NCBI GenBank assembly: GCA_021464415.1
Contig: CM038470.1
Span: forward strand, 12,660,394-12,724,393
Origin: Lonicera japonica
Lineage: Eukaryota; Streptophyta; Magnoliopsida; Dipsacales; Caprifoliaceae
DNA length: 64,000 nucleotides
Direction: 5' to 3'
Numbering within the stretch: position 1 is the first letter of the stretch; each line of letters starts with the position of its first letter. The position numbers and the translations under genes are program-made. Under the pieces are notes generated by a model. That model worked only from the letters and a program-made list of their open reading frames with translations, was not told the origin of the DNA and made no database searches. Below are positions 501-60,934 of the stretch, in pieces.

Positions 501-3500
501 AGGCAGTCACAGAGCATACTTAAAATAAATAAAATTCAAACTAATTTTAATAATAATAATAAATTGTCGAAAGCCACAGTGTTCTCTTGCTATCACTGTG
601 GAAACCCTGGTCACTCCAGGTTCATGGATTTATTTTATAATTACCATGATTATATGGAAGCATGGATGAAGATCCTATGCTATCAAAATGAAACCTTTAA
701 TCACTCCTGGTTCATACAATTTGACCAGCACTTTAAGCCTTCTTTCCCTAATTGGTTTGTCCGATGGTGGGACCAGTTTGGACCTCACTCCACAGTGTTC
801 TCTTGCTATCACTGTGGAAAGCCTGGTCATATGGCAAGAAATTGTCAAAACAAACGCCGAATTCCTCAGGCGAATGTTACTGAAGACGAGCCCTTAGTGG
901 CTATGATAATATAAATTAATCTGGTATCGGGTTCTGAAGGCTGGTGGGTAGATACTGGCACCTCTCGTCATGTCTGCCATGATCGTGCTCTATTTAAGAC
1001 CTATTCTGATGCCGTTGATAAGAAAGTGTTGTTGGGTGATTCTCACACCATTAATGTTGCTGGGACGGGTAATGTCGAGTTGAAATTCACTTCTGGAAAG
1101 ACTGTCATCCTTAAGGATGTTCTGCATACTCCAGAAATTAAGAAGAATCTTATTTCGGGTTATAACCTTAATAAAGCTGGATTTGTTCAAACTATTGAGG
1201 CAGATTTGTTTACTCTTACTAAGAATGGTGTATTTGTGGGGAAGGGTTATGCTTGTGATGGGATGTTTAAGTTGAATGTTGATGCTAATAAAGTTGTTTC
1301 TAATTCTGCTTATATGATTTGTTCATTTAATGTGTGGCATGCTAGACTCTGTCATGTTAATAAGCGCCTTATTAAGAACATGAGTAAACTGGATATTATT
1401 TCCCTCTTATCATTAAATGATTTCGAAAAATGTGAATTCTGTAGCCAAGCAAAGATTACTAAAACACCTCACAAATATGTTTTAAGAGAAACTGAACCTT
1501 TTGAATTAATTCATTCGGATATTTGTGAATTTGATGGTGTTTTAACGAGAAATGGAAAAAGGTATTTTATTACTTTTATTGATGATAATTCGGATTTTTC
1601 CTATATTTACCTTATGAAAAATAAAAGTGAAGCAATAGATATGTTTAAAATATTTTCTACAGAAATTGAAAATCAGTTTAATAAGAAAAAAAAAAGATTT
1701 CGGAGTGACAGAGGAACCGAATATGATTCAACTGATTTTAAAAATCTCTATACTTCACTTAGTATTATTCATGAGACGACTGCTCCATATTCACCTGAAA
1801 TGAATGGAAAAGCCGAAAGGAAAAATAGAACTTTTGTCGAATTAATTGTTGCTACGTTACTAAACTCAGGGGCTGCCTCACATTGGTGGGGAGAGATTTT
1901 ATTAACCGTTTGTCACATTCTTAATAGGGTGCCTAAGATTAAATCTAATTTATCCCCCTATGAGATTTTAAATAATAAAAGGCCTAATATTTCTTATTTA
2001 CGTGTTTGGGGGTGCCTTTCTTTCGTTCGTATTCCTGATCCTAAAAGATCTAAGCTTGCTAGTAAAGCTTATGAATGTGTTTTTATCGGATATGCAATTA
2101 ATAGTAAGGCCTATAGATTTTATGATTTGAAAAATCATGTTATTATTGAATCTATTGATGTAAACTTTTTTGAAGATAAATTCCCTTTTAAGTTGAAGAA
2201 TAGTGGGGGTAGCTCACTACCTTCTAGCTCTACTTTACCTGCTAGTACTGTGCACCATGATACATCAATTTAACCTAGAAAAAGTAAAAGAGTTAGAACC
2301 ACTAAAGACTTTGGGCCTGATTTTTATACATACACTTTAGAAGATGATCCATCCACTATTCAAGAAGCGTTATTTTCTTTAGATGCTGACCTTTGGCAAG
2401 AAGCCATTAACGATGAAATGGATTCCTTAGAATCAAATAGAACGTGGCATCTAGTAGACCTTCCTCCTGATTGTAAAACCATAGGTTGTAAGTGGATACT
2501 TAAAAAGAAATTAAAACCTGATGGCACTGTTGACAAATACAAATCACGTTTAGTTGTCAAGGGTTATAGACAACGTGAAAATGTTGATTTCTTTTATACT
2601 TATTCTCCCGTTACTAGAATAACATCTATACGTGTTTTGATTGCCATGGCTTCCTTGCATGATCTTGTTGTGTATTAAATGGATGTTAAAACCGCTTTCC
2701 TTAATGGAGAATTAGAAGAAGAAATTTACATGGAACAACCTGAAAGATTCATTATTACAGGCCAATAACATAAAGTATGCAAATTAAATAAATCCCTTTA
2801 TGGTTTGAAACAGGCTCCTAAGCAATGGCATGAGAAATTTGATGAATTGATTATTGCAAATGGATTTAGAATTAATGAAAGTGATAAATGCATTTATTAT
2901 AAGACTGAGAATAATGCTTGCACTATTATATGTTTATATATTGATGACTTGCTTATTTTTGGTTCTAATATCCATGTAGTTAATAATGTGAAATCCATGC
3001 TATGTGAAAATTTTGATATGAAGGATTTGAGAGAAGCCAATGTAATTTTAGGGATTAAAATTACTAGGACGGAAAATGGACTTTCTTTGGATCAATCTCA
3101 CTACATTGAGAAGATTCTAAAGAAATATAAATACTCAGATTGTAAACCAGCATGTACTCCATATGATCCTAGTGTGAAGTTGTTCAAGAACACTGGAGAC
3201 AGTGTTAGACAAACTGAGTATGCGAGCATCATTGGTAGCCTTCGATACGCTACTGATTGCACTAGTCCCGATATTGCTTATGCAGTGGGGGTACTATGTA
3301 GGTTTACTAGCAGTCCTAGTATGGAGCATTGGCATGCAGTTGAGAGGGTCATGCGTTATCTAAAAAGAACCATGGACCTAAAGTTACACTATCAAAAGTT
3401 TCCTGCTGTCCTAGAAGGATATATTGATGCTGACTGGAATACCTTGTCAGAAGATTCCAAGACCACAAGTGGATATATTTTCAGCATTGCTGGAGGTGCA

Positions 3501-3890
3501 GTTTCTTGGAAATATAAGAAACAGACCATTTTAGCCCAGTCTACGATGGAGTCTGAGATGATAGTACTAGCTGCTGCTAGTGAAGAAGCAAGCTGGCTGA
3601 GAAACTTTCTTGCATATACCCCTCTATGGGAGAGACCGATCCCAGCTGTCCTTATCCACTGCGATAGTACCGCGACTATTGCAAAAGTTCAGAACCGTTA
3701 CTATAACGGTAAGAAACGACAAATTCGTCGTAAACACAGCACGGTTAGAGAGTTACTTTCCAAAGGTGCTGTAAGAGTGGATTATGTGCGGTCTGAGAAA
3801 AATTTGGCTGATCCTTTGACGAAAGGACTAACGAGAGAGAAGGTGCTTAACACCTCGAAAGGGATGGGGTTAACGCCCAACGAGATTTGA
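501..3890 (+). pseudogene. copia gag(partial)-pol, one frame broken by four TAA stops
   Basis: All coding segments share one reading frame from about 501 to the TGA at 3888-3890. It is interrupted only by TAA at 912-914, 2271-2273, 2676-2678 and 2766-2768, and I see no frameshift. Domains in order: a CCHC knuckle (CYHCGKPGHMARNC, near 805-850); a protease active-site DTG near 950; an integrase HHCC finger near 1340-1450 and catalytic core Asp-Asp-Glu with 35 residues between the last two (Asp near 1520, Asp near 1708, Glu near 1815); RT with VKTAFLNGEL near 2685 and the YIDDLL catalytic box near 2938; and RNase H with DADW near 3430. All pol domains remain easy to read, so decay looks recent or limited to point changes. 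Confidence 0.92.
574..829 (+). other. Duplicated zinc-knuckle segment flanking a pararetrovirus-like insert in copia gag
   Basis: A 40-bp stretch at 574-613 recurs at 790-829 with one mismatch. The 216-bp offset keeps the frame. The first knuckle copy is truncated (CYHCGNPGH, lacking the last Cys) and the second is complete. Between them sits a Trp/Phe-rich peptide containing HSWFIQFDQHF and FPNWFVRWWDQFG. I associate this pattern with polyproteins of endogenous plant caulimovirids, not with copia gag. The heptamer TCACTCC occurs near both junctions and once inside, which suggests template switching at short homology. The family assignment is from memory of the motif pattern and needs a search. 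Confidence 0.5.
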
Positions 3891-6400: not shown

Positions 6401-8716
6401 TTAATTTAAAAATGAGGTAGTACTGACTTGGACCTTGGCTCAATTCCGGCCTAACGTTTCTATCAAAGTTGAAGGCCAATAAGAAGCCCATTCATTGGGT
6501 TGGGATTTCATATATATAGGACATAGCAAGTACGGAAGAATCAGGGCAATTGTGCTCTTTTAATTTTTAGTTACAGAATTACAAAATAGATCTACATTAA
6601 CTATTTTTTCTTGCTTTAATTTGGGAAAATAAGTACTATTAGTACTCATGTTTAAAGTTTTATATGTTTTATTATTGACTAGGTATTACTCGTGGTATTC
6701 GATATTTGTGAGACAAATAAAATATTGACATTTAATGTTTGAAAAAAAAACCTCATGCTTGAGTAATTTCCCAAAATATATATTTGCAAAACTGCAATGC
6801 ATGAATGAAAAATCATACTGCAAAAGATGATTTTTTTATACTCATCTAAATTTGAAACCGGATGAATTTAGTCAAATTGTGAGTTATCTAATTTATTTAT
6901 TTATTGGTGACGGAGATATCTCATTTATGTGTGTGTATTTTACACATAAGTTAGTCACTTGTTCGCTTTGTTATTCAATTATTCCCTTTCAAATATTTAT
7001 AACATTTTCAAATCATCAATGATGTACAAATTCATAAAATACATTTTTAAATGTAAATTTTAATTTAAATTCTTTTATATGTACAGTTTTGTGTTCACAA
7101 TAAAACTTATTTTATAGATATAAATGAGTAGGTTTCAAAAATATTAAAATTTTAATTTGTGACCCTTAATTTTATTTTATTTTAAAGATTGATAAGAGAG
7201 AAAGTGGTTCAATTTTTGTGAGTGGGAATGATATTAATTTGATATTTCAATGTTGGAGAAAAGACATTTAAAAGCAGATTAGTATACCAATTAGATGCAC
7301 GTGTGCCTTTAAATTAAAGAGTGTTTTTTTTTAAAAAAAAAAAACCAAACAAATAGTTGGTCAAAGCTATATTTTATAATATAGATGGTGCTTGACGTGT
7401 TATTTTCACGAGATTGATTTTTATTGTGTAACTTGATTTAGTCTTATCTTCTTATTTTGAATTTAATTCAAAAATTATTTGTTATTAGTTTTATTTTTCA
7501 TAAACAAAAAAAATCATTTAATTCAATACTTTGTAATATATGTCAATCAAATACATCTATACTCCGATTCGGATTAGTAGTTGAATCAAAGTTTTTATAT
7601 TCCAACTTATCAATCAAACTTTTGTATTGAGTTGGGTATTCTAACTTCTCACCTTAAAAAATAAAAACTAAACAATTTGTTCCGTTATAGTTTTGTATAG
7701 CCGCTTTTATTCAAACACCGTATGATTATGATCCAGATGCATCATATATAGGGGGCATGCATTTTTTTGTTATATCTGACGTTTACAATAATTCTCCACT
7801 TTTGAATTTTTGACTAAGAGCAATAAGCCAATAATATATCTTACGTACTTTGACCAGTGTAATCAAGATTTTAATTTAATGAAAGCTTGATTATCATTAA
7901 ATGTTAATAAATAAATAACAATAACACGACATATATATATATATATATATATACACTAGCATATAGATACACTCTATGTATATACAATAAAATACTTAGT
8001 AATTTGATAGATGCATTTGGTTTGCTTGCTTTTTTTAACATAAATAAACTCAATTTTAACATTTATGTAACATTAAAAAATAATTTTTTAAATACTCTTA
8101 GTAACTAATTACTCGCCGCCAGCAAACGTATTTCAATTATATATGATTGTGCTAGTTGACTGTGAATTCCACTAGTACATGCATGGTGTTGATCTCTTTT
8201 ATTTGATGAATCTTAAATTTCATGAACAATGTACCTGTGATTGGTTGGCAGTATTTGTCTAGCTAGCTAGTTTGTATTTGCGTGTGTGAATCATTACTAT
8301 TGCATTCATACGGGTAATCGATTATACTTGAGAAATTTTTTTATCTCTGATAAATGTTATATAATTTTAAAAATATCTTAAAAATGATAATTTAAATAAA
8401 TTTTAAACCATACATTTATATTTAAATTAATCTCGGAGATAGATCGAAATTGGTGCATGAGTGGTTAAAAGATATTTTCTGTTTTTTGACTTACGTTTAT
8501 AATTTTCGTTATAAAAAAATAATTACGTAGCATTACTAGTCGACAAAACTACTATTGATTGTTTGCAGCATGCGTACGTGTATCAATCTTTTAACTTGTT
8601 ACTGCTTTTGAGATTTTGGCAGAATATATTATGATATGCATATCTCTAGGTAGCTATATGCCTATTAGTTATTAGACAATACCAAGTGTTCCTTGGGGCT
8701 TGGTTGGTTTTTTTTT

Positions 8717-24565: not shown

Positions 24566-26286
24566 ATGCCTTTCGAAAACATGTTTTCGCAATCTCTCTA
24601 TGTGATCTCCGAATCCACCATTATTCCCCACCGCAAATCCACCACTGAAAACCTCAAGCTCTCCGTCTCTGATCTCCCTATGCTTTCTTGTCACTACATC
24701 CAAAAAGGCCTTCTCTTCACTCGCCCTAACATCGCTACTACTGACTTAATTTCACTACTCAAACGCGGCCTCTCCGACACTCTATCATACTTTCCCCCTC
24801 TTGCAGGCCGATTAGTCACTGATTCCGATGGATACGTGTATATCGCCTGTAATGATGCTGGTGCTGATTTCATTCACGCCGAGGCTGCTCATGTTTTTGT
24901 TACAGACATTCTATCCGCCACTGACGTTCTCGATTCTGTTAAGGACTTTTTCAAATTTGACAAGACTGTCAGTTATGATGGACATTTTAGTCCCATTTTG
25001 GCAATTCAAGTGACGGAACTTGCTGACGGGATCTTCATCGGCTGTTCCGTTAACCACGCCGTTGTTGACGGAACCTCGCTTTGGAACTTCTTCAATTCGT
25101 TTGCCGAGGTTTGCAGAGGCGTAAGTAAGATCTCGAGTACCCCGGATTTCAGCCGGAACTCCGTTTTGATCTCTCCGGCTGTGCTTAATGTTCCCGCCGG
25201 TGGCCCCAAGGTCACCTTCAACGTTGACGCACCGGTGCGTGAGAGAATATTTAGTTTCAGCAGAGAGGCGATTAGGAAATTGAAAGCGAGAGTGAATATT
25301 CGGAAATGGAGCGGTGACGAAGTAATTAACGTAGTTGAATTGATGGGGAAGCAAAGTAACGATTGCTTTAGATACGCAGACGGTAGGTTAACGGTGGAAA
25401 TCTCGTCGTTTCAGTCACTCTCTGCTCTACTATGGAGAGCGGTGACACGTGCGAGGAATCTGCCATCCTCCAAAACAACGACGTTCCGAATGGCGGTTAA
25501 TTGCAGGTAGGTGTTAAACTTCGTGGTTCTGGGACATAACCACGTACACAACTACGCATACAAGTTATAACAGAAATAAAACTAATATATATATTATATA
25601 TATTTTAATTTACAAACCATAAAACTCCATTAACACATAAGACATGATTTAATACAACATAATCTTAATTTTATTTCAAAATTTAAACACAATATTATAT
25701 TGTTTTAAACATTTTAGACACCAACACAATATTAAATTTTAAAATTAATTTTATAAATTATCGTGTTGTTTTTAAGATTGTCAATTCTGATTGTAGTTTT
25801 TAAAAATTGTCACCTCTAATTTCTAGGCACCGGCTCGAGCCGAAGTTGGAGCCATGCTATTTTGGCAACGCAATTCAAAGCATTCCAACATACGCATCAG
25901 CCGGGGAAGTGTTGGCTCGGGATCTGAGCTGGTGCGCCGAGCAGCTGCATAAGAATGTGATGATGCACGATGACGCTACAGTGCGCCGCTACGTGGCGGA
26001 TTGGGAGAGGGACCCAAAGTGTTTCCCTTTGGGGAACTTTGACGGGGCGATGATTGCGATGGGAAGTTCACCCCGGTTCCCTATGTATGATAATGATTTC
26101 GGATGGGGCAAACCGGTGGCAATTCGGAGTGGGAAGGCCAATAAGTTTGATGGGAAGATTTCGGCGTTTCCGGGTCGAGATGGGGGTGGCAGTGTGGATC
26201 TAGAGGTGGTGTTGGACCCCAAAACGATGAGTGGTGTGGAGTCGGATCCGGAGTTTATGGAATACGTTTTGGGTTCTAGTTATTGA
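24566..26286 (+). CDS. BAHD (HxxxD-type) acyltransferase, two exons
   Basis: Exons 24566-25506 and 25827-26286, with a 320-bp intron (donor AG|GTAGGT, acceptor TTCTAG|G), encode 466 residues, normal for the family. BAHD enzymes are cytosolic and move an acyl group from an acyl-CoA to an alcohol or amine of a specialised metabolite. Visible signatures are the catalytic HAVVDG (HxxxD) at about residue 167 in exon 1 and the structural DFGWG near residue 405 in exon 2. The SDLPMLSCHYIQKGLLF segment near residue 38 resembles the Arabidopsis At3g50280/EPS1-like group. Members of that group have varied functions, including salicylate biosynthesis, so the substrate is not assignable. No defect seen. 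A T25 run follows in the 3' region. Confidence 0.95.
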
Positions 26287-32377: not shown

Positions 32378-33644
32378 TAAAGTTTAATTAAAAAAATAAA
32401 AATAGAATAGGTCATATTAACCTGCTATAATAGGTTAAATGATTTGACACCTCATCAATGTGCATTAATTATTATCGGTACCCATCAATTAGTAGAAAGA
32501 AAAAGTAACCATTGAAAACTCATCCTAGTATATATATATACATATCTACTAGATACACACATAATACATATATCTATTATATGTATCTCTACATATACAT
32601 AGATCAAATAATTATTAAATTTAGTATACATACACACATTATATAAAAGCAAGTATACTCCATTCTCAATTAGAATTGTAGTCATTTATTAGCTTATTAT
32701 TAAATCTATAATGGAAAACATAGCCAACAGTGAACTACATCATATTCATGAAACTTTTCAACAAGTCTCCAGATCATTTGCATCCCTTCATACCAACTCT
32801 CAGCAGTCGACGATCTACAAATTTTGTAGCGTTTTCTGCGTTTTTTTCTATTTTGTTTTTTGTGGGTTGGGGAGCAACGCTCACACAAGAAGCAGCAGAG
32901 TAAATAAGCTACCACAAATTCAATCTTGTTCCATACCAAAACAGAACAAGTATCTTCAATTTAATAAGTCTCCACCTATCTCATAAAACTGCAGCCTTAT
33001 TTTTGTGAGTGTTTGAAACACTTGCAATTAAAATTTTACATATGTTATAAAATCACGATTATGGTGTAGTGATTATGTTGTTATAATTCTGAATGAAAAA
33101 CAACTTGCTAGAGTGTTTGTTTTTGGGATTGGTTGGGGGAAGGGAGGGAGGGGAGAGAGAGAATGAGATGGGGGGGGTTAAGCGTTAACAAAATATAAAT
33201 TAAAAGGGTTTAGTATTATTTGTAAAAGTTTAGGAAATTAAGTGTCAAAGATTTAAATGAAATTATTAACGAGTTAGAGGTAAGAGAAAGATTCAAACAC
33301 TATGCAATTTTGAGAAAGATATATATTGACGATTTTACAATATTAAAGAAAGAATTAAACCTAGGTCCAAACATCTAGATTTAATTTGCCTTTTTCCCGA
33401 ACAAAGAGTTTATCATCAACAGAGTATAAAATCAAACAAAAACCTGATTTGGGAAAAAATAGGAAAGAATAAAACAACATTTTGCCGTATCAATGAGATC
33501 CAGCCCAGGAGCTCTGGAATACGGGTGTGTAGTTTCAGGCCCAATTTTTTTCCCCATGATCTAAAATAATTTTTTAAATATACAGTCAAGGTGGAGAAAG
33601 GCCTAAAAAGGCCCAACTGCCTCCTTTTACAAAAAAATTGTATT

Positions 33645-33850
33645 TTAGAATTATTCTTCTTTTCCTTTATTCCCTCCTCCATGTTTCCCTCCTTGTCTCC
33701 TCCTTTCTTCCTCATTTTAGGCTTCTTGTTTCCTTCTTTACTTGTATATATATTCATGTCAATTCCATTGTAAATGTATGAAAAGATTGTAACAATGTAA
33801 TCCATTATGGAATTCTTGCTCATTATAATTTCTCTATTTCTTGTGTTGTA
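33645..33850 (+). repeat. Inverted copy of the LTR body
   Basis: These 206 bases are the near-identical reverse complement of 37363-37568 inside the 5' LTR. They are in the opposite orientation to the element's other parts, so they are not a normal 3' LTR. Confidence 0.9.
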
Positions 33851-34035
33851 TCACGTGTCCGCCAGTCAGCGCCACGTGGCATCCAGTCAGTGCCACGTGG
33901 CATCCAGTCAGCGCCACGTGGCATCCAGTCAGTGCCACGTGGCATCCAGTCAGCGCCACGTGTCCGCCACGTGACATCCAGTCAGCGCCACGTGTCAGTC
34001 ACGTGTCAGCCACGTCAGCGGTTAACGCCGTTTGC
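33851..34035 (-). repeat. G-box array, short inverted copy
   Basis: A tandem array of a roughly 21-base unit such as GCCACGTGGCATCCAGTCAG, with about nine CACGTG cores by hand count. It is the inverted counterpart of 36651-37037, including the unique GCAAACGGCGTTAACC border. Confidence 0.92.
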
Positions 34036-34101
34036 TAATTACAAATAATAATGCTAATTTATGTTGGAGAATATCATCATTCAATATCATCATTTCTAAC
34101 A
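34036..34101 (-). repeat. LTR 5' terminal 66 bp, second copy
   Basis: Direct repeat of 37576-37641, beginning TGTTAGAAATGATG on the minus strand and preceded there by a purine tract GAAGGGGGG. This is what the start of a 3' LTR should look like, but homology stops after 66 bases at the array. Confidence 0.88.
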
Positions 34102-34370
34102 CCCCCCTTCAAACTCAAGGTGGCAAATGGGCGGTCAGCTTGAGTTTGGAAAGCAAATCCTGAAAGCGTCCTTTTACTACATGAGATGATCTCCAACAAA
34201 TTGGAAAACTAGATCTAGAACATAATGATTATAATTACATAATTAAAGAAATTAAAGAACAAAACATAATGAATACGGAAGCAGTGGAGCATGGAAGCAG
34301 GAACATGGAGGCATGTGTGCAGGAGCATGGAGGCATGTGCTTAGATCTACTTTAACACCCCCCCTCAAGC
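34102..34370 (-). other. Two successive polypurine-tract/LTR-start junctions
   Basis: On the minus strand, GCTTGAGGGGGGG runs into TGTTAAAG at 34357. Some 255 bases later, TTTGAAGGGGGG runs into TGTTAGAAAT at 34101. Each looks like the boundary between interior and 3' LTR. The doubled boundary suggests that two related elements recombined. Confidence 0.6.
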
Positions 34371-34426
34371 TGAAGGAGGCTCTTAGGGATCCGAAGCTTG
34401 GATACGAGAAAATGGAATTTGGTTTT

Positions 34427-34428
<2 letters not shown>

Positions 34429-34463
<35 letters not shown>
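34429..34463 (-). repeat. A-tract (35 A on the minus strand)
   Basis: A run of 35 T on the plus strand, downstream of the LBD reading frame. With the tract at 34688-34714 it is a candidate remnant of mRNA tails. Confidence 0.9.
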
Positions 34464-34464
<1 letters not shown>

Positions 34465-34687
34465 ACATGTTCGATGATTGACCGGCAGACGGAACGGCGG
34501 TAACGGCGATGACGGGAGCCGACGGAACGGCGAGGTCCGGTGTAGAATTTTCGGAGGAAAAAACTTGATCTGAATACACGAGCAGTACGTATAACAGTAA
34601 CAAGAAATTGAATCAGAATACTTGGAGGTGCAGCGAAAGGCGACCCGCCGGAAATATTAAATTGAAGAGATTGAATATATATAGATA

Positions 34688-34714
34688 TTTTTTTTTTTTT
34701 TTTTTTTTTTTTTT
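34688..34714 (-). repeat. A-tract (27 A on the minus strand) 146 bases after the LBD stop
   Basis: The minus strand has 27 consecutive A residues shortly after the end of the LBD reading frame, at the distance expected of a poly(A) tail after a short 3' UTR. Confidence 0.85.
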
Positions 34715-34859
34715 AGAGAGGTGGAAGAGTAGCAGTGGTGCTAGTAGTCAATGATGGCCCTTTCTTTGGTTTTGGTTTTAGAGAGATAAACTGAAGTTTC
34801 GATATGAGAGGCGAGAGGTTTCCGAGGGTGTTGGTGGTGCGGAAGGAAGGGAACACACA

Positions 34860-36176
34860 TTATTGAGATAAAAAAGAGAAAGGCGATGGATTCTGAGAAT
34901 CATCAGCACCAAAATTCAAGATATCAGTGAAGTTAGAAGCAGAGAGCGAATTGTATCCTATATCTCCTAAGGTAGTCCAATCCGGAGTCATTAATCCGGC
35001 AACCTCCGCAACAGAACTAATTTGAGGAGACCCCTTTGAGAAACCATCCAAAGCAACTTGGTAATCTGACAGAGTCGGATATGCCGGCATATCCACTGCT
35101 GTCAGAGGATCCCCGTGTTCTGAAAGATTCACGGTCGGTAGATGGATATCAGGGGTTGATGAAAGGAGCTTTAAAAAACTTTTGTAGTGAGGATGCTCCA
35201 ACAAATCTTCCTGGGTCGGAAGAACCCCAGGTTCTAGAGGATTCTCTGAGGGGCCAGATGGAGAAGCGAAGGAGCCTGGTGGGTGAGCAAGGGAGTCGGA
35301 TGGATTGGCCCTTGAGGAACTTGCAGGAGGGTTAAAGGAGCCAGGTGGAGAGGCAAAGGAGCCGGATGGGTGAGTAAAGGAGCCGGATGGAGAAGCGAAT
35401 GAGCCTGGTGGGTGAGCAAGGGAGTCAGATGGATTGGCCCTTGAGGAACTTGCAGGAGGGTTAAAGGAGCCAGGTGGAGAGGCAAAGGAGCCGGATGGGT
35501 GAGTAAAGAAGCCGGATGGAGAAGCGAAGGAGCCTGGTGGGTGAGCAAGGGAGTCGGATGGATTGGCCCTTGAGGAACTTGCAGGAGGGTTAAAGGCGCC
35601 AGGTGGAGAGGCAAAGGAGCCGGATGGGTGAGTAAAGGAGCCGGATGGGTAGGCAAATGACCTGGAGGCTGGAGATTTCTCCGGCAGTTTTCCGGTCGAA
35701 CGGTGGCGGCGTCGACCAGAGCCGGATGGAGAAGCGAAGGAGCCTGGTGGGTGAGCAAGAGAGTCGGATGGATTGGCCCTTGAGGAACTTGCAGGAGGGA
35801 CAAAGGAAAATGACGGATTAACCCTGGGAGACTCGCTGTCCAGTCGAGCCTCCAACGCCGTCATTCGTGACTACAGAGCCTCAAGCTTTTGATCAAGAGA
35901 GGTAAGGAGGGCAGCGCATCCACCAGCAGGATTTAGGATTCTTGCCTTAGCTTCAAAGAGAAACGAATCGAGAGTTTCACGATGTTTGTGATCCGGTACG
36001 TGTTGTAAAAAGAATTCAACACTTTTTACCCCGAAAACGGAAAAGATTGTGTGATAATCTCGACGATGATACGCATTTGGAAAGATTTTAACTGATTCAC
36101 AAGAAGGAGGACAAGCTCTGCGGCGAAAAGAGCAGGCAGGACATGGAGTACCTCGCTGGCGGATGCTGATCGACAT
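34860..36176 (-). pseudogene. LOB-domain (LBD) protein with internal TAG and a Pro/Ser repeat domain
   Basis: From the ATG at 36176, or an earlier in-frame ATG at 36353, the frame encodes the LOB Cys motif CPACSFRRRACPPSC (C-x2-C-x6-C-x3-C, residues 12-26). A GAS-like block FGVKSVEFFLQHVP follows, then a coiled-coil segment LLTSLDQKLEAL. A TAG stop at 35873-35871 follows that Leu. The same frame continues from SRMTALEARLD for more than 330 codons. The downstream part holds about 3.5 repeats of 43 residues rich in Pro, Ser and Gly, then an acidic, Ser-rich tail ending FSFLSQ. LBD proteins are plant-specific DNA-binding factors. No intron interrupts the LOB region, where most LBD genes have one. 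The TAG falls inside the leucine-rich coiled coil, so either the gene is broken or two products are possible by read-through. Confidence 0.8.
35240..35812 (-). repeat. 129-bp in-frame tandem repeats in the LBD reading frame
   Basis: Units containing PPASSSRANPSDSLAHPPG and GSFASPSG recur every 129 bases, about three and a half times, almost identical at DNA level. The first unit is split by a basic insert RRRHRSTGKLPEK. High similarity between units indicates recent expansion or gene conversion. Confidence 0.9.
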
Positions 36177-36650
36177 GGCTGTTTGTATTGGATTTGAATG
36201 GGAGATTTGCAGTGAGGATGGTGCTATTGGGTGATTTGCAGTGAGGATGGTGTGTTTTGATTTTAATGGCAGGAAGCTGGTGAAAGGGTTAAAGGCGCCG
36301 ATCTCGAAATTTGAATTTCGAATTTCGAGGTCGGAGCAAAAAGATGCCGGCATTTGATGATGGCGAGGGTCTGGAGTTTACGGAATTTGCGGGTTGTCGG
36401 TTATGGTATGGATTAGGGGTTGTCGGTTATGGTATGACTGAGGAAATGGACGGTGTTGCTTGGGATTGACGGAGGAGAGAATCGGGAAGTTGAACGAGTG
36501 GATGAGTGGTGCAATGAGATCAACGGCTCTTGATGTTAGAATAGGAAAATAAGAAGGTTTAGGGGCTAGAATAGAAATATCAGAAAGTACAGGGGTGAAA
36601 TTGTAAATATATCTGACGGTGTCTGGAATATTCCGTCAATTCTGACGGCA

Positions 36651-37037
36651 AGCAAACGGCGTTAACCGCTGACGTGGCTGACACGTGACTGACACGTGGC
36701 GCTGACTGGATGTCACGTGGCGGACACGTGGCGCTGACTGGATGCCACGTGGTGCTGACTGGCGGACACGTGGCGCTGACTGGATGCCACGTGGCACTGA
36801 CTGGATGCCACGTGGCGCTGACTGGCGGACACGTGGCGCTGACTGGATGCCACGTGGTGCTGACTGGATGTCACGTGGCACTGACTGGATGCCACGCGGT
36901 GCTGACTGGATGTCACGTGGCGGACACGTGGCGCTGACTGGATGTCACGTGGCGGACACGTGGCGCTGACTGTATGCCACGTGGCACTGACTGGATGTCA
37001 TGTGCGCTGGCGTGGCTGACACGTGGCGCTTGTGTGT
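36651..37037 (+). promoter_or_regulatory. G-box (CACGTG) tandem array, long copy
   Basis: By hand count about 17 palindromic CACGTG cores sit in alternating units such as GCCACGTGGCGCTGACTGGAT and GGCGGACACGTGG. CACGTG is the G-box bound by plant bHLH and bZIP factors. The array lies some 475 bases upstream of the LBD ATG, between the 5' LTR and the gene, where it could act as an enhancer. A GCAAACGGCGTTAACCGC border and the hairpin CCGTCAATTCTGACGG (36633-36648) mark its gene-proximal side. Confidence 0.9.
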
Positions 37038-37084
37038 CAATGATGTGGCAGTTGCAGTTTGTAAGGAAATAGAGGAAAAATAAA

Positions 37085-37160
37085 ATGCTATTAGTAGGAA
37101 TCGAACCTTGCACTAAGCTGTGGTTACCTGATGGTCTTGCCAGCCAGGCTGAATGCTTCA
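37085..37160 (-). other. tRNA-like sequence (SINE head or captured tRNA)
   Basis: On the minus strand an A-box-like CCTGGCTGGCAAGACC is followed about 30 bases later by GGTTCGATTCC, a perfect Pol III B-box/T-arm consensus. Stems are incomplete, so it is not a clear functional tRNA. A tRNA-derived SINE head in the leader of the retroelement is the likeliest explanation. Confidence 0.4.
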
Positions 37161-37339
37161 ATAATAATTATTTGGACGTGGTTTTATTTGAACAGGTTTG
37201 CTGCGTAAAGTCTGATTCGAGTAGTGTTTGGAGGCGTATTTGATTTGTTTGATAATGGTGATAGGTGTGGTGGCTTGGTGGCGAGGTTGTGTGGTGGCTG
37301 GTGGTTGGTGGCGAGGTCGTGGTGGCTAGTGGCGAGGTT

Positions 37340-37352
37340 GCCTCTGATACCA
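37340..37352 (-). other. Primer binding site TGGTATCAGAGGC
   Basis: It sits immediately inside the TTTAACA end of the LTR on the minus strand and matches the initiator tRNA-Met complement TGGTATCAGAG used by plant copia elements. Confidence 0.85.
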
Positions 37353-37641
37353 TGTTAAATTATACAACACAAGAAATAGAGAAATTATAATGAGCAAGAA
37401 TTCCATAATGGATTACATTGTTACAATCTTTTCATACATTTACAATGGAATTGACATGAATATATATACAAGTAAAGAAGGAAACAAGAAGCCTAAAATG
37501 AGGAAGAAAGGAGGAGACAAGGAGGGAAACATGGAGGAGGGAATAAAGGAAAAGAAGAATAATTCTAAGCTTTAATAATTACAAATAATAATGCTAATTT
37601 ATGTTGGAGAATATCATCATTCAATATCATCATTTCTAACA
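37353..37641 (-). repeat. 5' LTR of the LBD-carrying retroelement
   Basis: 289 bp, beginning TGTTAGAAATG and ending ATTTAACA on the minus strand, directly followed by the primer site. The right flank outside begins AATAT. Confidence 0.82.
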
Positions 37642-40908: not shown

Positions 40909-41372
40909 TCTAACAAATTAATTAAATTTAAACAAGAAAAACACGGATGAGAGATTAATAATAATAATAATAATTATACATATATATATATGTGGTACTT
41001 ACGTTTTGCTGAAGAAACCATGAACCGATCATGGCGATGAATCAAATCATGATGATGGTTCGATTCATCGTTAACATCATCAACATCGACGAAGACTCTG
41101 CGGCGTTTCTGTCTCTCTCTAGCTTTATGGTTTTGGAACCAATAAAACACATTCTTGCTTTCAATCTTGCCATAAAAGCTAAGTTCTTTCGAAATCTTTT
41201 GTATCTGTTCGGTACTCGGTGTTCTCAGCCCCGACCGGAAAAGTTCCGTCAGTACTTTTACTTGTTCGCTCGTCGGATTCCACCGCCCACACTTATTTCC
41301 ACCTCCACCTCCACCTCCACCTCCGCCGGTGGTGCGGGGTTTCATGCAAAAGCCTGACATTCCCTCTTCCAT
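40334..41372 (-). CDS. WOX5: WUSCHEL-related homeobox transcription factor, WOX5-like
   Basis: Exons 41372-41003 and 40515-40334 (donor C|GTAAGT, acceptor TTTGCAG|AG; intron 487 bp) encode 183 residues, matching the size of WOX5. After a Gly run (about ten residues near 16-25) comes the atypical WOX homeodomain, from [16 protein letters not shown] through to [16 protein letters not shown]. The second exon holds the WUS-box TLQLFPLN and a C-terminal EAR-like LDLRLSFL, both used for transcriptional repression through TOPLESS-type corepressors. The KCGRWNPT start and the STEQIQKIS and [12 protein letters not shown] helices favour WOX5/WOX7 over WOX4 or WUS. WOX5 maintains the root quiescent centre. 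That role is inferred by family. Confidence 0.9.
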
Positions 41373-58121: not shown

Positions 58122-60934
58122 TCACTTTGATTTGAATGGGATGGCCCTGATCACAACAACATGATAGAGTGCGGCTAGTGCTGCACCAATGAATGGTCCC
58201 ACCCAGAATATCCACTGCAAAATTAAACATCCCCAAAAATAACTTCTTTAGTTCATTGAAATTGCACGAATCATAAAATAGAAAAAGTTAAGGCTCCGAT
58301 TGCAGTTAAAAAAAAATTCACTGTAAAAGAGTTTTTCATGAACAAATGAATTTTTCTTGCTTGTCTGGTTAGTCCCATAAATAATGAAAACTAACAGCAG
58401 TATTTTTGGCACATAATTGGTTGCATTAAAATATAAAAAACAGTGTAAAAATAAATTATAGTTTTTTATTTACAACGCCTGTCACATTGTTAGATTTCAG
58501 GTCCTTACATGGTCATCCCAAGCATGGTCCTTGTTGTAGATGATTGCAGCCCCAAGACTACGAGCTGGGTTGATGCCGGTACCAGTAATAGGGATGGTGG
58601 CCAAGTGCACCAAGAAAACCGCGAACCCAATAGGCAATGGTGCCAATATCTGATCACACAATTCTCAAACAACTTATCATCCAGAATTCCCAGCAAAATA
58701 TATCGGATGCACACAAAGATAATAAACCCAATTAACAAGACTAGCAATTTTGTTAGGGCAAAGATTGAAACGAAATAGTTCAGATCTTATCTCTGAATCA
58801 CGTGTGCACGAAAAACTAGTATTTTTTTTCTTTTTAACGTGGCACCAAAAACTAGTATACATTAGAAAAATGAGAGTTAATGCTTACAGGGACGTGAGAG
58901 TCTCTGGCGCTACGCTTGGCGTCAGTAGCAGAGAAGACAGTGTAAACGAGCACAAAGGTACCAATGATCTCAGCACCAAGACCAGATCCCTTGGTGTAAC
59001 CGTGATTGACGGAGTTGGCCCCACCGCCAAGAACATTATATTGGCTCCCCTCAAAGCCCTTCACTACACCAGCACCGCAAATTGCACCCAAACACTGCAT
59101 CACCATGTAGTACAATGCCCTTGTCAAAGACAATTTCCTCGCCAAAAATAAGCCAAATGTCACTGCCGGGTTAATATGTCCTCCTGCACCAACCCCATAA
59201 TCACAATATTAGTCACAGTGACACACACATATAGTTCGTAGTGTAAAGATTTAAGCTATAGACATAAAATACGCGCAACTAAATTTCTATGCAAAATGAC
59301 TTGTTAATGTGTGTGATTCGTCAAGTAAATAGGAAGCCGCATATACATGCGAGTTCTATTGTAGACGATCACATATGTAATGCAGTCTGCTGTGCACTAT
59401 ATTTTGTTTTCATATGTGGCAATGTTCTTTTAATTTAAGCAATCCAGAAGCTCCCTTTAAACGGGGTACATGATTATTATGTTTTGCCTTCAAAAATTTT
59501 GATGAAATTTATCTAGGCATATAAGATGATCTTCGTGGTATTGGGATGATTTACATGAAATTTTCAAAAGAAAAGGGTACCCTGCCAAAATAGTTATTAA
59601 GTTATTATTGCATAATATTACCATAAAAAATTGTACTGTATGTGTTTTCACATTTATAAATTAATCTAGCCATAAAGCCATCCAAGAAAAAACTAGCGAA
59701 GTAACGTGATCATTAAAAATACACATATACACCGATTTTGAATTTGATCCAAAATTTGATCCAATTCTAAATTGAACATTTACAAAATTTAAAAGAAATG
59801 CTATTGTTCTCAAATAGTGAATTATTTATCCTTCCAAAGGGGAAGAGGTCCCCCATATTGAATTATTTATTACTTATCCTTTAAAAGGAGAAAAGGTTAA
59901 TAACTTTTCTAAGAGCCCTGTTATTTGTACCTTTCAAACGTGTCACAAAAATCAACTTTTCAAATTTAACTAAAAACACATCTCAGCACCATTTTATTTA
60001 TTACAAACACTAACACACTCAGCACTTCATTACAAAATATTAGGCGAATACTTAGTAACACACTGTTCCCATTTAGACTAAATTTATGTGAGTGCACTCA
60101 CTCAACGCTCTATTGCCTAATGTTAGATGAGTTTTACCAACAAACTCTCTCTAAATGAGCCGAACATATATGATTGCACTCACCTCTTCTTACGCTAGCC
60201 TTATTTTAACAAAGGTGAGTTAGTGATAATAAATTTAGATATATTTGTAAACATGGTGTTTAGGACAAATATAGAATATAAATATCACCCCCCTTTTTAA
60301 AGGTTAATAGCTTTTCTAAACAAAATGAGCCTGGTAGATTTCAGTATAGAGAGTAACAATCATAGGGTTAGTTATAAATTCAACCAGTAGATTCTATTAA
60401 AGTCTCTCGGTTTTTTATTATAAATAAATTAATTAACCAACAGATTCTACGCGATCCTCGTGACATCTTTTTGGACGTACTCAATCTTTTTTTTAAAAAA
60501 AATAAAAATAAAAAATTAACACCTAATACAGTTACACAAGCATTATATACAACTTCAAAAAGCATGCATCAAATGAAGAGGAGGTGGAGGTGGAGAGATT
60601 GACCTGAAATGCCAGCAGTACAGTAGACGAGAGCGAAGATCATACCCCCAAAAGCCCAAGCTATACCTTGTATCCCAACCGTCGAACACTTGGTGGGCGA
60701 TTTAGACACCCCCATCACCGTCAAAACGGTGATGTACAAAAATAGAAAAGTGGCCACAAACTCGGCGATTCCCGCCCGATAAAACGACCATGAAGTCAGC
60801 TCCGACGGCTCGAAGAGCGGTGCCGGTGGTGGCTCATTGTAGTCCTTGTCTTGGGTCTGAGCCGCCGTCCCGAGCGGCTGCCTCTCATTGAACTTGTTCG
60901 CTCCCAATCTCACGTCCTCTTCCTTTCCCTCCAT
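58122..60934 (-). CDS. PIP1: Plasma-membrane aquaporin PIP1, four exons
   Basis: Exons 60934-60604, 59183-58888, 58649-58509 and 58214-58122 join in phase to 286 residues, the standard PIP1 length and the conserved PIP four-exon structure. PIP1 proteins are six-helix channels of the plasma membrane that pass water and in some cases CO2 or other small solutes, often as heterotetramers with PIP2. Visible features: the PIP1 N-terminus [20 protein letters not shown], two NPA motifs in half-helices ([10 protein letters not shown] across the exon 1/2 junction and [11 protein letters not shown] in exon 3), loop D with [10 protein letters not shown] bearing the gating Ser and pH-sensing His, the Arg after the second NPA, and the short PIP1 tail AIPFKSK. 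A GAAA-repeat leader lies directly before the ATG. No defect seen. Confidence 0.97.

Follow-up and report, generated by a model that had tools for sequence, protein, structure and literature searches.

An LBD transcription-factor gene as the sole long reading frame of a small, multicopy LTR retrotransposon in Lonicera japonica

We analysed 64,000 nucleotides of the Lonicera japonica genome (contig CM038470.1, positions 12,660,394 to 12,724,393), a stretch referred to below as the window. It contains a small element with long terminal repeats (LTRs) that encloses a LOB-domain (LBD) transcription-factor gene and a dense array of CACGTG motifs (G-boxes). The genome holds well over a hundred LBD-bearing copies across at least three kinds of retrotransposon, and the window copy is a damaged member of the smallest kind. 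It probably belongs, in rearranged and broken form, to a young non-autonomous LTR element of high copy number whose only long frame is the LBD, a gene that entered LTR elements long ago, was copied into this small element and is now moved in trans.

A multicopy family of LTR elements with an LBD

The window LTR was searched against its own 886-Mb assembly of 967 contigs. The best 40 of 991 candidates, the window included, all matched at a rounded 100%, and many were paired 3.1–3.7 kb apart. Twenty-six loci were fetched, comprising 23 two-LTR elements, two solo LTRs (L027 and L033) and one rearranged pair of LBD units (L028). Two LTRs of the TG...CA type flank the unit in the 23, with a truncated 5' LTR in L026 and L034, and the LBD is carried by all of them and by L028. 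Perfect 5-bp target duplications were found around both solo LTRs and 19 of the 23 two-LTR elements, the others being L011, L015, L026 and L034. In the family a primer site follows the 5' LTR and a purine tract precedes the 3' LTR, and the family unit combines LTR, primer site, G-box array, LBD and purine tract. The internal region (2.8–3.4 kb in the 23 fetched elements) is mostly the array and LBD unit. The window element is non-autonomous, no gag-pol match having been found in its LBD-frame and remnant-like pieces.

The initial annotation had described the locus as an LTR element in which a primer site and purine tracts enclose an LBD and a G-box array instead of gag-pol, and had suggested that further copies would make it a family. 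Both claims are borne out. No gag-pol was found in the pieces scanned, and the proposed genome search for insertions that share LTR, array and LBD but have distinct 5-bp duplications gave a supportive result, with the same cargo in 23 two-LTR loci out of 26 and perfect duplications at 19. The opposite case, a single copy at an ordinary LBD locus, is excluded by this multicopy unit with its target duplications.

The two LTRs of a copy are nearly identical, with 14 mismatches in 6329 compared sites over 22 pairs (L011, L028 and the window left out), in a sample that is biased towards young copies because LTR identity was the criterion of choice. When the window LOB protein served as query, all of the best 150 of 1649 candidates (window included) matched at 99% or more; none of these 150 has a stop inside the LOB match, and 118 have an open frame of at least 450 aa. 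Eight further pieces combine a LOB of at least 99% with LTRs 87–99% identical to that of the window (L038 has a partial match and L035 none), so the LTRs are more variable than the cargo.

The 5-bp duplications and the tRNA-Met-type primer site fit a placement in Ty1/copia, without defining it; tRNA-Met is named as the usual copia primer in the accessible text of PMC6317226. An autonomous partner of the family was not found, no search having been aimed at one.

Two of the fetched loci have unusual arrangements. L028 (1749–9075) holds two LBD units on opposite strands, one of which, L028b, has LTR matches of only 84% (3' piece) and 87% and a different leader. L011 (1–889) is a three-LTR tandem in which the purine tract of an upstream unit precedes the 5' LTR of the element.

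Architecture of the window copy

The element is read on the minus strand, and its parts are given here in element order, followed by the rearranged left end.

37641 to 34036, minus: whole LTR element, small, with its far end rearranged
37353–37641, minus: 5' LTR of 289 bp (TGTTAG...AACA), present at 100% (rounded) in at least 40 places in the genome, window included
37342–37352, minus: primer-binding site TGGTATCAGAG of tRNA-Met type, from its sequence, directly adjoining the 5' LTR
37031–37352, minus: non-coding leader, 98.8–99.7% identical in L009–L026, with split or partial matches in L018 and L021
36650–37030, minus: G-box array with a 21-bp unit and 17 CACGTG
36177–36649, minus: stretch preceding the LBD start codon
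34860–36176, minus: LBD reading frame, 438 codons when intact, broken here by a stop at 35871–35873
35871–36176, minus: LOB domain with CX2CX6CX3C, 101 residues plus the stop in this copy
35249–35648, minus: tandem repeat of 129 bp (43 aa) within the LBD frame
34715–34859, minus: stretch 3' of the LBD frame, read as a 3' untranslated part
34688–34714, minus: first A-run, 27 A in the element sense, a possible poly(A) trace
34464–34687, minus: 224-bp segment between the A-runs
34429–34463, minus: second A-run, 35 A
34113–34428, minus: segment leading up to the purine tract; it contains another purine-tract-like copy (34353–34380)
34102–34115, minus: polypurine tract AGTTTGAAGGGGGG, ending at 34102 and abutting the 3' LTR, which starts at 34101
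34036–34101, minus: 3' LTR, positions 1–66 only, identical to the 5' LTR
33852–34036, plus: inverted second G-box array block, 180/185 identical to the element's own array
33645–33851, plus: inverted LTR positions 74–280, 100% identical

The TGGTATCAGAG motif is also found 3' of the 5' LTR in most copies of the family. We take 34464–34687 to be a possible remnant of the N-terminal part of gag, and 34113–34428 a possible remnant of the C-terminal part of pol; neither has a copia Pfam match. The Pfam scan for gag-pol, which covered the two LBD-frame pieces and the two remnant-like pieces, gave no match. The leader also holds a tRNA-like string, GGTTCGATTCC (37095–37105, minus), which to us resembles a tRNA B-box; a tRNA/Rfam search with it gave no match. 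A comparison with viral contigs gave no relative.

The first A-run is 16–45 nt long across the 23 two-LTR copies. The segment between the A-runs is missing from L018, L024 and L025, as if deleted between them, and L031 has a single A-run too.

The two LTRs do not form a simple pair. The 5' LTR stands, but the 3' LTR keeps positions 1–66 only, in place, and what had been read as a left arm at 33645 consists of inverted sequence from the same LTR. The LTR pieces break at positions 66 and 74, and an inversion of about 390 bp is therefore the simplest reading of the left end; an assembly artefact is possible for these 390 bp. The target duplication of this copy is unreadable because its 3' LTR is split and partly inverted, and AATAT at 33577–33581, considered as a candidate, is uninformative in such AT-rich sequence. 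Autointegration through the LTR ends was rejected as the cause of the rearrangement, no junction lying at an LTR terminus. An origin of the inverted array block in another copy was rejected as well, since the element's own array was the best match of the 25 compared.

The LBD frame and its LOB domain

The LBD of the window matches Pfam PF03195 with 71.2 bits (E 1.1e-19; curated cut-off 24.2) and that of the family copy L012 with 72.8 bits against the same cut-off. The coding region that had been annotated is present, with a recognisable LOB frame, but is not intact in this copy. Its in-frame stop at codon 102 is unique to the window among 23 aligned frames and falls in the predicted last helix (86–111) of the LOB part. 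Among the other copies with a recognised start, the frame is open to codon 438 in 9 of 17. The number of 43-aa repeats differs between copies in whole-codon steps, and frame lengths peak at 505, 462 and 591 aa.

The only solved relative found by sequence is the LOB domain of Ramosa2 (PDB 5ly0, E 9.9e-15). A model of L012 residues 1–112, built from 19 aligned LOB sequences, has a mean pLDDT of 90.1 and a TM score of 0.78 to 5ly0 over 103 columns; prediction from the single sequence was poor (pLDDT 52.7). All 19 aligned LOBs have the four cysteines in the CX2CX6CX3C arrangement. Of the class I features, a helix with regular leucines is present; the exact LX6LX3LX6L spacing, FX2(V/A)H and the GAS residues are not kept.

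LBD genes in other LTR retrotransposons

A genome search with PF03195, in which the best 150 of 1605 candidates were scored, separated two groups. Twenty-four score 110–148 bits and are presumed to be ordinary LBD genes. The other 126 score 80–87 bits, with recurrent frames of 259, 234 and 214 aa, although at least one of them, restricted to profile positions 1–69, could be an exon from an ordinary gene. Eight loci of this second group, retrieved together with their flanks, all lie in LTR-element sequence, the four loci with a 259-aa frame in a copia context and the four with a 214- or 234-aa frame in a gypsy context.

The copia carrier L043 encodes a copia gag (Retrotran_gag_2, E 3.7e-27) and Pol_BBD and has direct repeats, at least 687 bp long and 99.3% identical; its LBD runs antisense to gag. 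It has 2.7–3.4 kb in common with each of L066–L068 at 90–94%. In L044 and L045 the LBD lies antisense to and downstream of a Ty3/gypsy pol. The domain order in L045 is RT_RNaseH, RVT_3, Integrase_H2C2, rve, and L044 has the same order over two frames. We take RVT_3 to be the aRH domain. With an aRH between RNase H and integrase, both carriers belong to the Tat clade of Ty3/gypsy, this being the order of Ogre/Retand (Tat) elements in the part of PMC6317226 available. L069 aligns with L044 at 95% over 3.8 kb, and L070 with L045 at 98–99% over stretches of 2.4 and 1.1 kb; in both cases the match spans the LBD and reaches its pol side. L045 has a further frame at 6676–7257 (minus) that, by eye, presumably encodes a protein like the plant mobile domain.

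The LBDs of the elements are alike in their LOB domain and in a C-terminal motif, SPDWT...LNFDADD, which is changed in the window family. In a tree with 17 presumed ordinary LBD genes, taken from the 24 high-scoring matches, seven element-type LOBs (the window family, L043–L045 and L063–L065, the last three as LOB pieces only) form a clade with 100/100 support. The LOB of the window family is 49–58% identical to the other element LOBs and 21–33% to the 17 genes; for element LOBs as a whole the identity to these genes is 21–40%. A fresh capture of a host LBD by this element, as the first description implied, is not upheld, the LBD grouping with those of two other LTR-element families. Lack of introns was considered as proof of capture through RNA and found weak, because many of the presumed ordinary LOB matches are unsplit as well.

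Tests for selection on the LBD

Between carriers, the ratio of nonsynonymous to synonymous substitution rates (dN/dS) in the LOB domain is 0.20–0.31. Lower values within families (0.05–0.085, one pair differing by a single silent change; pooled P 7.5e-10) were set aside, because copies ranked by Pfam score are biased towards conserved ones. They were replaced by 20 copia copies chosen by gag similarity alone (rows 2–21 of the best 40 of 1468 candidates), with the reference L043 among the 20. Nineteen carry the LBD, one of them without its 5' part, and in 14 of the 18 with a start the frame is open to its end or to the end of the piece.

From site counts, the expected share of nonsynonymous changes is 78.6% in the LOB and 76.6% in the rest of the frame. 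Among variants present in at least two of the gag-picked rows, 12/24 are nonsynonymous in the LOB (P 0.0019) and 18/25 in the rest (P 0.37), P values here being guides only because the copies are related. Among these shared variants the copia copies thus show constraint on the LOB and none on the rest; counting all variants, the rest of the frame has 54/72 (P 0.42). For the window family, an alignment of 23 frames (that of the window among them) gave 50 nonsynonymous against 31 synonymous changes over the whole frame (pN/pS 0.56, P 0.008).

The G-box array

The array at 36650–37030 holds 17 CACGTG, whereas 2000 mononucleotide shuffles of the stretch average 0.13 and never exceed 2, and the two array blocks account for 26 of the 35 CACGTG in the whole window. 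The 23 two-LTR copies have 6–21 each and eight out of eight further leader pieces 3–20. The LBD unit L028b has none, and beyond the coding part of the LBD L043–L045 do not match the window element at the nucleotide level. The combination of LBD and array that the initial annotation had stressed holds for copies of the family, but the array is not obligatory for an LBD-bearing element, since L028b and the other two carrier families are without it.

The RNA of the array is predicted to fold more stably than shuffles (z −7.4), and a role as RNA, in packaging or dimerisation, is thus an alternative. G-boxes are bound by bHLH proteins. The LOB protein binds GCGGCG, and bHLH048 lowers its affinity, according to the accessible part of PMC5698300. 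By this analogy, a functional link between the LBD and the array is thinkable.

Other features of the window

An unrelated second Ty1/copia element at 564–3890 (plus) encodes integrase and RVT_2, its frame being in separate pieces. Coding pieces were also found for a homeodomain, WOX-like by eye (40974–41372, minus), for the Transferase family (24566–26286, plus; first half of the stretch scanned) and for an aquaporin-like protein of the MIP family (60569–60934, minus).

Proposed origin and possible role of the LBD

We propose that LTR elements acquired an LBD long ago, which became resident in them. Template switching during reverse transcription would then have brought a polyadenylated LBD transcript, probably from another element, into a small copia-like one, a route suggested by the A-run 3' of the LBD if it is read as a poly(A) trace. 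Present mobility would depend on gag-pol supplied in trans by a partner element. The LTR would drive an mRNA of leader plus LBD, from which intact copies may produce a nuclear LBD protein that would dimerise through its last helix and contact DNA through its LOB domain. Such a protein might alter transcription in dividing or meristem cells, or at the promoters of the elements themselves, in a way that favours new insertions. The G-box array in the leader could serve as a docking stretch for bHLH or bZIP factors, or as a structured RNA signal.

A stronger reading, which we put forward tentatively, is that the LBD is a standing gene of LTR elements whose DNA-binding domain is selected, that it was passed between Ty3/gypsy and Ty1/copia, and that it then became the sole gene of a small active element together with the array, regulator and sites spreading together. 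If this is true, the elements encode and spread both a regulator and its binding sites, which amounts to self-propagating developmental control. Several observations weigh against the account of a resident LBD copied into this element that is proposed above. Early stops occur in 4 of the 18 gag-picked copies with a start, and 1 of the 20 has no LBD. When all LOB variants of that sample are counted, 31/47 are nonsynonymous (P 0.03), and among shared variants LOB and rest do not differ significantly (Fisher P 0.15). Eight of the 17 window-family copies whose start is recognised have a broken frame, and the LOB codons of the family have four nonsynonymous changes (one of them the window stop) against two synonymous ones, too few to tell, so that recent copies look nearly neutral there. 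DNA binding by the element LBDs may differ or be lost, given that GAS and FX2(V/A)H are changed. In the tree, the LOB of the window family is nested in the element clade next to L045, on a long branch with support of 92/85, and the ordinary status of the comparison genes is presumed from their Pfam score. A closer host donor is possible too, because LBD genes split by introns could lie outside the best 150 of 1605.

We consider it rather unlikely that the LBD is passive cargo, hitch-hiking in a successful non-autonomous element to which its product is of no use, with frames open through youth. The near-identity of the LTR pairs would fit such a history, as would the frames broken in 8 of 17 copies and in the window itself, the absence of a skew towards silent changes among recent LOB variants of the family, and the fact that the sequence 3' of the frame varies as little as the LOB part does (nucleotide diversity 0.0017 and 0.0016). 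Passive carriage does not sit well with LOBs that, at 49–58% identity, still keep the four cysteines, the leucine-rich last helix and the C-terminal motif, nor with a pN/pS below 1 in two families and the low dN/dS between carriers.

Separate captures of one fast-evolving host LBD gene by two or three LTR families also seem rather unlikely. The window family and L043–L045 have only the coding part in common, as separate captures would leave it, and a donor could lie outside the best 150 of 1605 PF03195 matches. Yet L043 3142–3771 and L044 3155–3796, a copia and a gypsy carrier, match at 82% over a stretch that takes in about 270 bp ahead of the LBD start, which fits one cassette passed between elements, and the 17 presumed ordinary LBD genes are only 21–40% identical to the element LOBs.

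That an LTR fragment merely lies beside an ordinary LBD gene, or that the locus is an assembly artefact, is scarcely credible: the left end of the window copy is an inverted LTR and array block without a readable target duplication, but the same unit of LTR, array, LBD, purine tract and LTR recurs with target duplications on many contigs.

Comparison with known systems

The presence of a host-type gene in an LTR element is known. Bs1, Rider and TRIM are named as cases of gene capture in the consulted part of a 2026 review (PMC13317346). Bs1 of maize is, like the window family, an LTR element with host-derived coding sequence; as described there, it holds segments of three metabolic or membrane genes and no full-length frames (PMC13317346). 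In the window family, by contrast, the frame is that of a whole transcription factor; it occurs in at least 150 copies, and two other LTR families contain homologues.

SIRE and Tat elements often contain extra open reading frames (eORFs), for which a few domains are named, as far as the available text of PMC6317226 goes. The eORFs of SIRE, Ogre/Retand and Athila resemble the LBDs described here in being extra genes outside gag-pol in either orientation. They differ in their named domains, which in the same text are the plant mobile domain, Transposase_28 and Athila ORF-1, and the word 'LOB' is absent from its main text (PMC6317226). In our elements the eORF is an LBD, and one small element has it as its only long frame.

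TRIM- and LARD-type elements are short, have LTRs, a primer site and a purine tract, and are moved in trans. The window element is likewise short, with LTR, primer site and purine tract, but unlike them its family has a long frame that is kept open in many copies. HvRA2 of barley is an LBD gene. According to the available part of PMC5333098, it sits between two BARE elements. Compared with class I LBD factors, the element LBDs have the CX2CX6CX3C motif, a predicted LOB fold and a leucine-rich last helix, but GAS and FX2(V/A)H are changed and they form a separate clade.

Among openly licensed papers, searched by titles and the openings of abstracts, there was no report of an LBD as cargo of LTR elements. 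Known captures and extra frames are gene segments or mostly unrecognised proteins in the parts of PMC13317346 and PMC6317226 consulted. As a variant of this known kind, an LBD that resides in three LTR families within one genome, and in one of these as the sole long frame, appears to be new. Counts of the LBD family in such genomes may include many genes of elements, and a developmental regulator kept by several LTR lineages would offer a direct test of whether retrotransposons use host-type transcription factors to steer their own expression or the fate of host cells.

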